Shown here: one piece after another, positions 33,143-47,988 of the stretch
How the letters are laid out: the number at the start of each line of letters is the position of its first letter
How positions within the stretch are numbered: position 1 is the stretch's first letter
Assembly (NCBI RefSeq): GCF_000818015.1
Contig: NZ_CP007511.1
Span: 4,315,501-4,379,500, forward strand
Length of the DNA: 64,000 bases
Direction of reading: 5' to 3'
Source of the DNA: Stutzerimonas balearica DSM 6083
GTDB lineage: Bacteria > Pseudomonadota > Gammaproteobacteria > Pseudomonadales > Pseudomonadaceae
Translations under genes and position numbers: made by a program
The notes under the pieces: model-generated
Seen by the model: only the letters and a program-made list of their open reading frames with translations
Told to the model about the DNA's origin: nothing
Database searches by the model: none

Positions 33143-33714
33143 TGGATTGCCGGCAGCACCTGCGCCAGGCCACCGCGACGATGCACCAGCAGGTCGACCG
33201 GGCCTTCTCAGCCTTCCAGCTGACCGAGGCGGCAGGTTACCGGGGCTTTCTGTGCGCGCATGCGCGCGTACTGCTGCCGCTGGAACAGGTGCTCGACGAA
33301 GCCGAGGCCGCCCAGCTATTGGCGGACTGGCCACAGCGCCGGCGCAGCGCGGCCTTGCGTGCCGACCTGGCCGATCTCGCGGTCATGCCGCCGCCGGCTC
33401 TGGTGATCGATCGCCCCGCGGATGAGGGTGCACTGTGGGGCCTGCTCTATGTGCTCGAAGGCTCTCGCCTGGGCGGCCGCGTGCTGACCGAACGGGTTCG
33501 TCGGGCCGATCCCGACCAGCCGCTTCGCTACCTCAGCCATGGCAATACGGCGCCGCTGTGGCCCCGTTTTCTGGAAAGCCTGCAGCGCCGCGCCGCGGCC
33601 TGCGACATGGCGAGCATGCAGGCCGCCGCAGTCGTCCTGTTCGCCCGCTTCGCCGAGGCCGCCCGCCAGGAACAGGCGAGCGCGGCGACGGCAGCGGCTG
33701 TGGGATGCAAATAA
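33142..33714 (+). CDS. bphO: Biliverdin-producing heme oxygenase BphO
   Basis: 190 residues. Heme oxygenase fold with proximal His15 ('TATMHQQVDRAFS') and 'GLLYVLEGSRLGGRVL' (distal helix glycine motif). It makes biliverdin IX, the chromophore of BphP. Overlaps the kinase stop by one base (TGATG). The last codons (VGCK-stop) lie inside the proposed Tn7-like end that starts at 33699, so the natural C-terminus may have been replaced by a few element-encoded residues; the catalytic domain appears complete. Confidence 0.9.
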   Translation: MDCRQHLRQATATMHQQVDRAFSAFQLTEAAGYRGFLCAHARVLLPLEQVLDEAEAAQLLADWPQRRRSAALRADLADLAVMPPPALVIDRPADEGALWGLLYVLEGSRLGGRVLTERVRRADPDQPLRYLSHGNTAPLWPRFLESLQRRAAACDMASMQAAAVVLFARFAEAARQEQASAATAAAVGCK

Positions 33715-33926
33715 AGTTTCATCCTAACCCTAAAAACAGAGAGAAACGTCGCGCGCTCTCCTATTCATAAAAAATCCCTTTTATATCAGTATGTTGTGAG
33801 CACTTACACCCGAGACTGGATCGTTTTGCCTTTCATGGGAGAATGATTAAGGGCGCTAAAGTATCATCCTAATTTTCGCCCAGGCTCGAAAAATACGGTA
33901 AATGGTGAAAATAAAGATTCATCCTT
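33699..33926 (+). mobile_element. Candidate Tn7-like left end with three direct repeats
   Basis: Starts 5'-TGTGGGATGCAAATAAAG. A 15-mer (A/C)TAAAG(T/A)(T/A)TCATCCT occurs three times in the same orientation, with CATCCT at 33720, 33865 and 33920 (spacing 145 and 55 bp). This arrangement resembles the three TnsB sites of the Tn7 left end. The area is much AT-richer than the flanks. The specific sequence differs from canonical Tn7, so it is a relative rather than Tn7 itself. Confidence 0.55.
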
Positions 33927-34220
33927 TTCCGATGTTGCCCGTTCCAACACGTAAGCAGTCAGTCAGAAAAAACACATAGATCCAATCCCTAGCGAGCATT
34001 GAGCTCTCTCATCCGTGCCAACTGCTCCAACCCTTGGACGCCCTAAATGCTTACCCAAAAAAATCAACACCTTCTTTTAAAAACACAATCAAAAATGACT
34101 CCCTTATATCCATTTAACCTAAACAGCCTTCCCCCCACTGCACTAGCTAGGGCTCGTAGTTCGGCGCAAGGCTGAAGTCGCTTGGCTGCTTCGCTGTGCA
34201 GATCCATGACCCACTTTCCA
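33927..34220. other. AT-rich non-coding stretch between the element end and degP
   Basis: No supported gene. A 60-codon minus-strand frame (34064-34246, MWNYNREFDGKW...) overlaps the 3' end of degP; it has no recognisable domain and no good ribosome-binding site. Base composition is AT-rich compared with the cargo. Confidence 0.5.
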
Positions 34221-35384
34221 TCAAACTCCCGGTTGTAGTTCCACAAGCATCTCGCGAGTCTTGCCGGCCCGCTCCACTAACAAGACAACAACATCTCCAA
34301 CGTTCTTGTCGTCTAGCCGGGCCTGTAATGTGGTGACGTCGTCGACGGCGATACCGTCGATGCTGATAACGCGATCGCCGGGCACGATGCCGCCTGCGGT
34401 GACCTCGACGCCGACGAGCCCGGCCCTGTGCGCCGCCGAGCCCGGCGTCACGCGCAATACGAATACGCCCTTACTGCCGGTCAGCGCCTGCAGACGCGCG
34501 TTGAGCTGCTCATCCACCTCGATGCCCAGCGCCGGACGGATGTACTTGCCGGTCTTTATGAGTTGCGGCACCACGCGCATGACGGTATCGACCGGCACCG
34601 CAAAGCCGATGCCGGCCGAGGCGCCAGACGGACTGTAGATGGCGGTATTGATGCCGATCAGCCGCCCAGCCGAATCGAGCAGCGGGCCACCGGAATTGCC
34701 GGGGTTGATAGCGGCGTCGGTCTGGATCAGGTGGTCAATGGCCGGGCCACTGGCGTCGCCGGAAAGGGTGCGGTCAAGCGCCGAGACGATGCCGGTGGTG
34801 AGCGTCCAGTCGAGCCCGAAGGGATTGCCAATGGCAAAGACCTTTTGCCCCACCTTGAGATCGGCACTGGTGCCCACCGGCACCGCCGGCGGGCGCTTGA
34901 AGCCGACGCCAATCTTGAGTACCGCGATGTCGTGCGCAGGACTGGCGCCAACGAGCGCGGCCTGATAATCGCGACCGTCGGCCAGTTTGACCGTGGCAGA
35001 CGATGCCCCCTGGATCACGTGGAAGTTGGTCACCACGTGGCCGGCATCGTCCCAGATGAAGCCGGAGCCGGTGCCGCGCGGCACGGAAAAGACATTGCGG
35101 GACCAGACGTCACGCACTAGTTGCGCCGTGGTGATGTAAACCACCGACCCGCGCGATTTCTCGAACAGCTCGATGGTGGTTTTTTCGTCGGCGGCCAGGT
35201 CGCCGCGCGGCGTCACCGTGCGCTCCTGCGTTTCGTGGGGACTGAACCAGGCTTCGATGGCGGGCAGGAACTGCCACAGCAGCATGAGTGCGGCGATGCA
35301 GCCAGTGATGACGAGCCAGCGCCGGATGAATCGATCCGGCGCCGGGCGGCTGTAGGGGTCGGGGTAGGTCACGTCATTCTCCAT
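34221..35384 (-). CDS. degP: DegP/HtrA-type serine protease of the stress-tolerance island
   Basis: 387 residues. One N-terminal membrane anchor (WLVITGCIAALMLLWQFL, about 23-40) rather than a cleaved signal. Trypsin-like triad: His in VTNFHVIQG, Asp in AHDIAVLKI, Ser in GNSGGPLLD. A single C-terminal PDZ domain (about 290-380, 'GIVPGDRVISIDGIAV'), so it is DegS-like in architecture. It degrades misfolded periplasmic proteins. Last gene of the minus-strand cargo operon, 7 bp after htpX. DegP is a canonical end gene of tLST. Confidence 0.9.
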   Translation of the reverse strand: MENDVTYPDPYSRPAPDRFIRRWLVITGCIAALMLLWQFLPAIEAWFSPHETQERTVTPRGDLAADEKTTIELFEKSRGSVVYITTAQLVRDVWSRNVFSVPRGTGSGFIWDDAGHVVTNFHVIQGASSATVKLADGRDYQAALVGASPAHDIAVLKIGVGFKRPPAVPVGTSADLKVGQKVFAIGNPFGLDWTLTTGIVSALDRTLSGDASGPAIDHLIQTDAAINPGNSGGPLLDSAGRLIGINTAIYSPSGASAGIGFAVPVDTVMRVVPQLIKTGKYIRPALGIEVDEQLNARLQALTGSKGVFVLRVTPGSAAHRAGLVGVEVTAGGIVPGDRVISIDGIAVDDVTTLQARLDDKNVGDVVVLLVERAGKTREMLVELQPGV

Positions 35385-35391
35385 GTTGAAA

Positions 35392-46457: not shown

Positions 46458-46830
46458 ATGCCCCCTCAGCGCCGTACCTACAGCAAATCTTTCAAGGCCC
46501 AGGTCATTCAGGAGTGTTCTGAACCCGGTGCCTCCATCGCAAACATCGCCTTGGGCTACAGCCTCAATGCCAACCTCGTCCACAAATGGATTCGGCTACA
46601 TACCCAGAAAACCACGGCTATCCAGCTAGCGTTCATCCCGTTGCCTTCTCAAATGCTCGGCGCGGGATCGCATGCTCAAGTGCGCTGCTGCGATCATGAG
46701 TTTGATCCGGTCCGCCCGTAATAATGGGCACGATCCGTATGCCTATCTCAAGGATGTGCTGACACGGTTGCCGACGCAGCGGGCGAGTGAGATTGCAGAG
46801 CTGCTGCCGCATAGGTGGCATCCGGCATAG
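46458..46830 (+). mobile_element. IS66-family remnant (tnpA 5' part fused to tnpC 3' part)
   Basis: 46458-46610 encodes MPPQRRTYSKSFKAQVIQ... with 'LVHKWIR', the N-terminus of IS66 TnpA. From 46672 to 46830 another frame encodes 'AAIMSLIRSARNNGHDPY' and 'LTRLPTQRASEIAELLPH', the C-terminus of the IS66 DDE transposase TnpC. The middle of the IS (rest of tnpA, tnpB and most of tnpC) is missing. Non-functional. Confidence 0.8.
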
Positions 46831-47120
46831 TCGCGCAAGACGGTTTGCCCGCACGCTTACGTTCAACAGCTCAAGCACCGTCCGCCCTTCGCGGGATCGT
46901 TGCCGCCAGAGCCACACGCCGAACTTTTCCACCTTGTCGTCGCCGGCCTGCGGTCAGTCAGGCAAGCCCAGGTGCTCGTTTTCCTGCTTGATCGCGTGGT
47001 CTCGGATCGCGTGCACCCGGGAAACGGCATCCACGAACTGCCACCATCTCTTAGCTTGGCGGGGTCAAGCCAGCCGGGATGCCCGGACGGTTACGCTGGT
47101 CCGCGCCCAGTTGCGGCACC

Positions 47121-47228
47121 AAGGTCGGCCGCAGTGATGAAGCGGGTCTTGATGCCGCACTGCGCCGCCCGATAGCGCAGTGCGATGGCCAGATGCGTCT
47201 TGCCGACTCCCAAGGGGCCTATATCGCC
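47121..47228 (-). mobile_element. IS21-family IstB ATPase fragment
   Basis: One minus-strand frame encodes [19 protein letters not shown] and then [12 protein letters not shown], the Walker A region of IstB, the helper ATPase of IS21 transposases. Only about 36 codons match; both sides are cut. The surrounding 46831-47313 stretch has short unassigned frames and no intact gene. Confidence 0.7.
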
Positions 47229-47313
47229 TTGGCACGGCTCCGGGCAGTTTCGGGGAGGCTGCACGCAGTGCGCGACAAGATGTATCGCAGCCGAACTGCG
47301 GTGTATTCTGCAA

Positions 47314-47988
47314 TCAGCCTAGGGCCGCGCGTATCCGCTGCTTCCAGTCGAACACCCGGGCATGGTTGGCCCCAGATGAGCTTTCTTTCGGGTGATGCAC
47401 AGAGTGCAAAGGCTCACAGTACTTCGCCATGGTGCCTGGCCAACGCAACGAGCCTTTCACTGTCTCCCTCAAGATCCTGTCTATGCATTTTCCTGCCTCA
47501 ACACCTGCTTTGAAGCCCATGATCCGCGTTGACATGGTCTTCCGGTTGTCTGAGGTATCTATTTCTAGAAGGTAGCGTTGATCGCCGTTTTGCAGCTTGA
47601 ACCTTGCCAGCAGATAGCAGCGTGATTTTTCGTGATCAATCATGTGGTAGCTGCAACGTGGAACGGGCGGCAGAGGCCTCACTTCCAGTGCTACCAGCGC
47701 AACTCCAGACTCTTGGGTGATTTGTTCAAGAATCTCTCGGAGCAGCGAGAAGCGATCTGCAAGCCGCTCATGCTCGTCCCCATCACCCTCTCCCTCACCC
47801 AATTGTTGGAATTCTCCTGACGCTATGCTGCCCTCGCTCACAGGATCAGCCACGCCGAAGAGTTGGCTTTCTCTGCTCGGGCATTGCTCGTCGTCGACCT
47901 TCTTGCCATGACCGTTGGCACGCTCCCCGTTGTAGGCGATCTTGGTGCGCAGCTGAGCATCAAACGGCCCTCTGCTGAAGCGAGCGCC
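47314..47988 (-). pseudogene. tnsE: Tn7-like TnsE, C-terminal fragment
   Basis: The minus-strand frame is open from the codon directly after the glmS TAA (GARFSRGPFDAQLRTKIAYNGERANGHG, in two parts: GARFSRGPFDAQ / LRTKIAYNGERANGHG) to a TGA at 47314: about 225 residues. There is no start codon near the junction; the first GTG is at 47853. The C-terminal part ('CSYHMIDHEKSRCYLLARF', 'HSVHHPKESS', 'DWKQRI') is like TnsE C-terminal domains, the Tn7 protein that directs insertion into replicating plasmids. The N-terminal half is missing. Orientation, same as glmS, agrees with the Tn7 gene order. The family call is from memory of motifs and needs an alignment. Confidence 0.6.

Follow-up and report, generated by a model that had tools for sequence, protein, structure and literature searches.

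The window analysed here is a stretch of 64,000 nucleotides (bases 4,315,501-4,379,500) of the complete, single-contig 4.38-Mb genome of Stutzerimonas balearica DSM 6083. Between glmS, the target gene of Tn7, and the heme oxygenase gene bphO, it contains a Tn7-like element that carries genes of the transmissible locus of stress tolerance/locus of heat resistance (tLST/LHR) and that lacks its glmS-proximal end. Read from glmS, the order is a short spacer, a tnsE tail, IS66-type and small open reading frame (ORF) fragments, orf1/dna, hsp20c, clpK, a cls stub, ftsH, trx, kefB, tdcA, psiE, htpX, degP, the transposon left end and bphO, the latter being convergent with glmS across the element. The features are given below in window coordinates.

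33142..33714, plus strand: bphO (heme oxygenase); its last four codons and its stop come from the transposon left end
33699..33930, plus strand: Tn7-like left end, with the TGTGGGATG terminus and three repeats resembling TnsB sites (~33709, ~33857 and ~33908)
34221..36381, minus strand: degP-like protease and htpX-like protease (cargo)
36341..36844, minus strand: psiE-GI (cargo)
36841..37859, minus strand: tdcA homologue (PAS-GGDEF), frame-broken by a 10-bp deletion near 37746
37856..40009, minus strand: kefB-GI antiporter and trx-GI (cargo)
40006..41886, minus strand: ftsH-GI (cargo), with trx directly next to it
41962..42120, minus strand: cls remnant, residues 1-50 of 476
42138..44987, minus strand: clpK disaggregase (cargo), 949 amino acids (NCBIfam NF033606, 2154.5 bits for a cut-off of 1900)
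45083..45688, minus strand: hsp20c small heat-shock protein (cargo)
45692..45966, minus strand: orf1/dna regulator, split over two frames, with an identical split in genomes G029 and G112 (see below)
46183..46718: small ORF (minus strand) and IS66-type transposase fragment (plus strand), also found in copies with intact tns genes
47314..47966, minus strand: tnsE remnant, residues 325-540 of 540
47967..47988: attTn7 spacer of 22 nt that separates the glmS stop from the deletion junction; base 47966 is common to tnsE
47989..49817, minus strand: glmS, the attTn7 target gene, complete

A tnsE tail without its partner genes

The frame that adjoins glmS (47314-47988, minus strand) had been described as tnsE-like in a preliminary description of this DNA, and its similarity to TnsE is indeed strong: it matches the Pfam family TnsE_C (PF18623) in a profile search (152.5 bits, E = 9e-45) and, by sequence, the solved Tn7 TnsE chains 5d16, 5d17 and 9d5l (E-values from 7e-10 to 2.5e-7). 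It corresponds to residues 325-540, that is, the last 216, of a 540-residue TnsE with 99% identity, and it is the sole TnsE match in its own genome. One could imagine that this frame encodes a functional short TnsE or has nothing to do with TnsE, since its 224 codons are open without stops and in frame with glmS. Nevertheless, the 99% match to the last 216 residues of a full-length protein refutes an unrelated gene, and no TnsA or TnsB was found in the genome; this explanation as a whole is scarcely credible.

The relatives of this protein were searched in samples of the genus (56 genomes, 5 matching), the family (398, 9 matching), the order (390, 13 matching) and the class (369, with one distant TnsE match besides the window). 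All six genomes with a close relative (E < 1e-80; G016, G024, G029, G079, G112 and G564) have frames of 540-543 codons. The remaining matches are distant or short, with frames of 74-375 codons in G037, G159, G608 and G724; no glmS was found in the stretches examined around the short TnsE of G159, G724 and G037. The family, order and class searches returned no other close shortened TnsE, and a search of phages returned no match. Near-identical TnsE tails probably do exist elsewhere, as in P0125 (a cluster of 75 member sequences), but that sequence starts downstream of the junction described below.

The preliminary description had also reported the absence of tnsABCD, and the searches agree: TnsA and TnsB have no match in the complete 4.38-Mb genome, and TnsC and TnsD have none in window positions 33001-49990, the range searched for them. 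As a control, the TnsB query recovered four of six genomes (G016, G024, G029 and G112, missing G000 and G037); the TnsA search had no control at the genome level, and the same TnsA reference found tnsA by tblastn in other loci.

The left end and the loss of the right end

At the other extremity of the element, the terminus TGTGGGATG starts at 33699. Three spaced direct repeats starting from a TGT terminus had been noticed there, and several observations identify them as a genuine Tn7-like left end. The first 552 bases are identical at 551 positions to the left end of an element in another genome of the genus (G029), and the same left end occurs in an Escherichia coli plasmid (NZ_CP061755, L058). 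A degenerate repeat pattern, built from the repeats of the window themselves and capturing two of the three, gave 2 matches against 0 expected in 100 shuffles; the third and more divergent repeat (~33857) was identified by eye.

No right end is present at glmS, and the genome holds no second full match to the end sequence; two further matches to the end pattern have 2 mismatches each, for 1 match with the reversed-pattern control. A left end alone would not suffice for transposition. Because the right end is missing and no TnsA or TnsB was found in the genome, the cargo probably cannot move by its own Tn7 route, even if homologous recombination could still move the element.

Sibling elements that keep the lost parts

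The preliminary description had predicted that the stutzeri group would contain glmS followed by an intact tnsABCDE and this kind of cargo. Such an element exists with both of its ends in G029, where the order is bphO, left end, degP to clpK, hsp20c, tnsE-D-C-B-A, right end and glmS. Its cargo is ordered as in the window and likewise lacks the yfdX block, and its cls is full-length. The two loci align in three collinear blocks (94.0%, 95.6% and 98.8% identity), interrupted by ~1.2 kb of the cls interior that is missing from the window and by ~80 bp near kefB that is missing from G029. On the glmS side the alignment ends at window position 47966. The stretch absent from the window, from the TGT of the right end to the tnsE junction, measures 7,090 bp in G029 coordinates. 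In the G029 copy, tdcA also appears to have frame breaks and kefB has a gap, and a second clpK, 91% identical to that of the window and with one stop counted, lies away from glmS in the same genome (C1, 2408581-2411412).

The orientation glmS, right end, tnsA-B-C-D-E and then tLST genes, which is the known layout of Tn7 with tnsA nearest glmS and the tns genes reading away from it, is shared by G029, by a genome of the same family (G112), by Pantoea agglomerans (L006), by another Pantoea sp. (L007) and by a metagenome-assembled genome (L008). All of them thus associate glmS, tnsABCDE and tLST genes, although in G112 the tLST genes are set apart from tnsE by ~13 kb of other DNA; the left ends of G112, L006, L007 and L008 lie beyond the stretches examined. 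Elements at glmS in L009, L011, L014/G016 and G024 have no tLST genes in the stretch examined.

The glmS-bphO site in the genus

If the element is an insertion, related genomes should include sites where glmS and bphO directly face each other, and such empty sites do exist. The bphO product scores 22.2 bits with the Pfam heme oxygenase family, just below the curated cut-off of 23, and has matches in 45 of the 56 genomes of the genus at E <= 0.001, the best non-self identity being 55%. The three weakest of these (G008, G010 and G024, with E-values of 1e-5 to 1e-7) were dropped and the 42 genomes at E <= 1e-20 were counted. In 34 of them bphO is on the glmS contig and convergent with it, while in the other 8 the contig or the orientation is different. 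The match ends of the convergent pairs are separated by at most 150 bp in 15 genomes, by 150-1000 bp in 5, by 1-10 kb in 3 and by more than 10 kb in 11. The 15 empty sites, none of them from the species of the window, together with the widely separated pairs indicate that the glmS-bphO site is often empty and often occupied, and that it is an insertion hot spot in the genus. One of the 15 (G047; L040, L064) retains ~22 nt of a right end between glmS and bphO and is the scar of an element that was lost almost entirely. The glmS flanks of L033, L037, L050, L056 and L057 carry a different type of end, which contains CACGGAATAAAGATTGACAC.

The junction on the glmS side

The preliminary description held that the tnsE-like frame reaches the glmS stop with no intergenic spacer and no attTn7 insertion point. 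This must be revised. The glmS stop is followed by 22 nt that are not tnsE and by one base (C) that is common to tnsE; the homology to tnsE begins at 47966 and about seven codons of the open frame before that point are not tnsE. The spacer seemed to be missing because the reading frame happens to continue through these 22-23 nt. The junction is sharp: from CGTTTGATG onward the window matches full-length tnsE, whereas the preceding bases differ, and at the junction itself one to two bases are common to both sides.

The distance between the glmS stop and TGTGGGATG was compared in ten elements that bear a right end, L014/G016 being one genome that was counted once and the G047 scar (27 nt) being left out. 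It is 24 nt in four elements, 25 nt in five and 26 nt in one, which places the insertion ~25 nt downstream of glmS, as against the 22-23 nt of the window. The deletion thus starts at the former site of the right end, to within ~0-4 nt.

The 5-bp target duplication is exact in G016 (AGTGT), G024 (ACAAG) and the plasmid L058 (ACGTC), whereas in G029 it is shifted by an additional 4 nt and L059 (NZ_CP061749) has none. In the window, the partial duplication that remains, GCC(G), fits a spacer of 25 nt, but it is not relied on here. A bphO that is 97% identical to that of the window (P0001, the representative of a cluster of 108 members) has the same transposon-coded tail, so that the left junction exists in a second sequence; P0001 gives no empty site.

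A scenario for the decapitation

These observations are best explained, with a probability that we put at about 0.9, by the insertion at glmS of a Tn7-like element with tnsABCDE and tLST/LHR cargo that was afterwards decapitated by one deletion. In that case, a TnsABCDE transposon would have inserted in the space between glmS and bphO, ~25 nt after the glmS gene, and a later single deletion of ~7.1 kb would have taken tnsA-D together with the right end and codons 1-324 of tnsE. What remained would be the left end, the cargo and the tnsE tail, and the cargo would no longer move by transposition. The identity and orientation of the remnant, the missing parts, their presence in siblings and the place of the breakpoint are directly shown, while the single deletion and the immobility are inferred. 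That a single deletion ran from the glmS side into tnsE had already been proposed; the sharp junction and the 7,090 bp missing relative to G029 do look like one event.

An alternative is that an island already decapitated on a plasmid reached glmS by homologous recombination or insertion sequence (IS) activity. In its favour, plasmid 1 of Klebsiella pneumoniae J1 (L114) bears a shortened tLST, in which a short hypothetical gene takes the place of cls, together with a tnsE gene of only 492 bp. Yet the left end of the window element is exact and lies on the bphO side as in G029, the spacer on the glmS side is near the standard length and no IS occurs in the sequence at both boundaries, all of which makes this route quite unlikely compared with insertion followed by deletion on the spot.

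The cause of the deletion is a separate matter. TnsA cuts 3 nt outside the element, so that a one-ended cut followed by end joining would give a junction such as the one observed. The deletion may therefore be the scar of an abortive excision, in which TnsA/TnsB cut nowhere but at the right end, the broken glmS side then being joined to a site inside tnsE. We consider this cut-and-join step doubtful, and much less secure than the deletion itself. If it were true, it would mean that Tn7-like elements can strand their cargo in chromosomes through damage of their own making, and it would predict a distinct class of decapitated elements that break exactly at the outer edge of the right end. The competing explanation, which concerns this step and not the insertion or the loss, is a random or microhomology-mediated deletion that involved no transposase and whose outer breakpoint fell near the right end by chance. 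The one to two bases shared at the junction argue for it, as do other deletions of tns genes, which break elsewhere: in tnsB in Pseudomonas saxonica (L016), in tnsA in Pseudomonas dryadis (L017) and just inside the right end in G608. Nevertheless, the breakpoint of the window lies ~0-4 nt from the expected right end, within or beside the 3-nt TnsA stagger, a closeness that only ~0.1% of the positions in the lost 7.1 kb would offer by a rough, after-the-fact calculation. On balance, we regard a chance deletion as slightly better than an even bet.

Other decayed copies include independent tns deletions in P. saxonica and P. dryadis. In P. saxonica (7691-10204), residue 525 of tnsB is joined to residue 474 of tnsE with an overlap of 7 nt. 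P. dryadis (9243-10123) has glmS, the right end, tnsA residues 1-50, other sequence and tnsE residues 499-539, and P. lundensis (L015) keeps tnsE residues 432-540 beside tLST genes. In G608, which belongs to the same order but is distant (L122, bases 1489-3303), glmS is followed by three repeats of the right-end type and then by the end of tnsE, beginning near residue 455; this decapitation at glmS is an independent one that spared the right end. The query for decayed copies was the TnsE tail, and copies devoid of it would be missed.

Several points weigh against the scenario or one of its steps. The spacer of the window was judged native by its length and not by homology, as no element-free genome of the same species could be searched. 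The 5-bp duplication is only partly visible: the left flank is GCGGC, with GCCGC as its complement, of which the glmS side keeps GCC(G). Furthermore, bphO has neither a stop of its own nor a hairpin before the transposon, while the hairpin is present in several relatives; since the stop is not its own, the left flank may also be altered, which weakens the argument from the duplication. As for the cut-and-join step, a single junction underlies it, and both L017 and G608 were decapitated at glmS yet keep the right end and break further in, so that outer-edge breakpoints are not the rule. The decayed copies point to repeated loss of tns genes, but they speak against a general rule of breakage at the outer edge of the right end, and G608 in particular led us to lower our estimate for cut-and-join slightly and to raise that for a chance deletion by as much.

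The stress-tolerance cargo

The cargo had been described as a whole stress-tolerance locus, which overstates its content. The tLST core dna-hsp20c-clpK is present, with dna split between frames. Compared with the E. coli plasmid NZ_CP061755, hsp20-GI, yfdX1, yfdX2, hdeD and an orf are absent between ftsH and trx; only 50 of the 476 residues of cls are kept; and the homologue of tdcA, a thermosensory diguanylate cyclase, is interrupted by its 10-bp deletion (~37746). Since G029 lacks the same block, its loss is either older than the decapitation or a separately inherited trait. The cls stub also occurs outside the window: single megablast pieces span it on Klebsiella plasmids, and a short lineage with a truncated cardiolipin synthase is described in PMC5347186.

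Comparison with known elements

The preliminary description held that the tLST cargo is usually described on plasmids or generic islands and that its carriage by a Tn7-like element would give a mechanism for its chromosomal spread. The carriage is real, but it is not new. According to PMC8012707 (2021), tdcA is located on a Tn7-like transposon in Pseudomonas aeruginosa CF39S and the other genes of that transposon match the LHR; glmS and the names of tns genes do not appear in the main text; Tn7 elements can flank the locus (PMC8290217); and the public annotation of plasmids already names TnsE beside clpK. The term Tn7 is absent from the main texts of PMC5347186, PMC5383660 and PMC8407380, and no paper in the open-licence library that was searched pairs tLST and glmS as whole words. 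The broader claim that Tn7-like elements carry tLST is therefore mostly in print already. What the window adds is a documented step from a mobile to a fixed stress-tolerance locus, with a congeneric sibling that still has the lost parts, and a checkable prediction on the position of the breaks in decapitated Tn7-like elements; what most deserves attention is the breakpoint at the transposon end.

The CF39S element lies on a Pseudomonas chromosome and, like that of the window, is Tn7-like and carries LHR/tLST genes with tdcA among them; the window copy differs in that it is devoid of the right end and tnsA-D and has a broken tdcA frame. The parent strain CF39 of PMC8012707 likewise has a frame-breaking deletion in tdcA. 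Four E. coli and Klebsiella replicons (NZ_KY416992, CP110759, NZ_CP061755 and NZ_CP061749) bear tnsABCDE, the right end and the series hsp20c-clpK-cls-ftsH to trx-kefB; unlike the window, they keep the tns genes, the right end, hsp20-GI, yfdX1, yfdX2 and hdeD. NZ_CP061755 has both ends and a matching 5-bp duplication and NZ_CP061749 has both ends without duplication, while the left end of NZ_KY416992 and CP110759 was not found in the stretch examined. The closest counterpart is G029, which has the same glmS site, the same cargo without the yfdX block and a left end identical at 551 of 552 positions, and which differs by the presence of tnsABCDE, the right end and a full-length cls. The element of the window thus belongs, in a decayed state, to a group of Tn7-like tLST elements that is already known.

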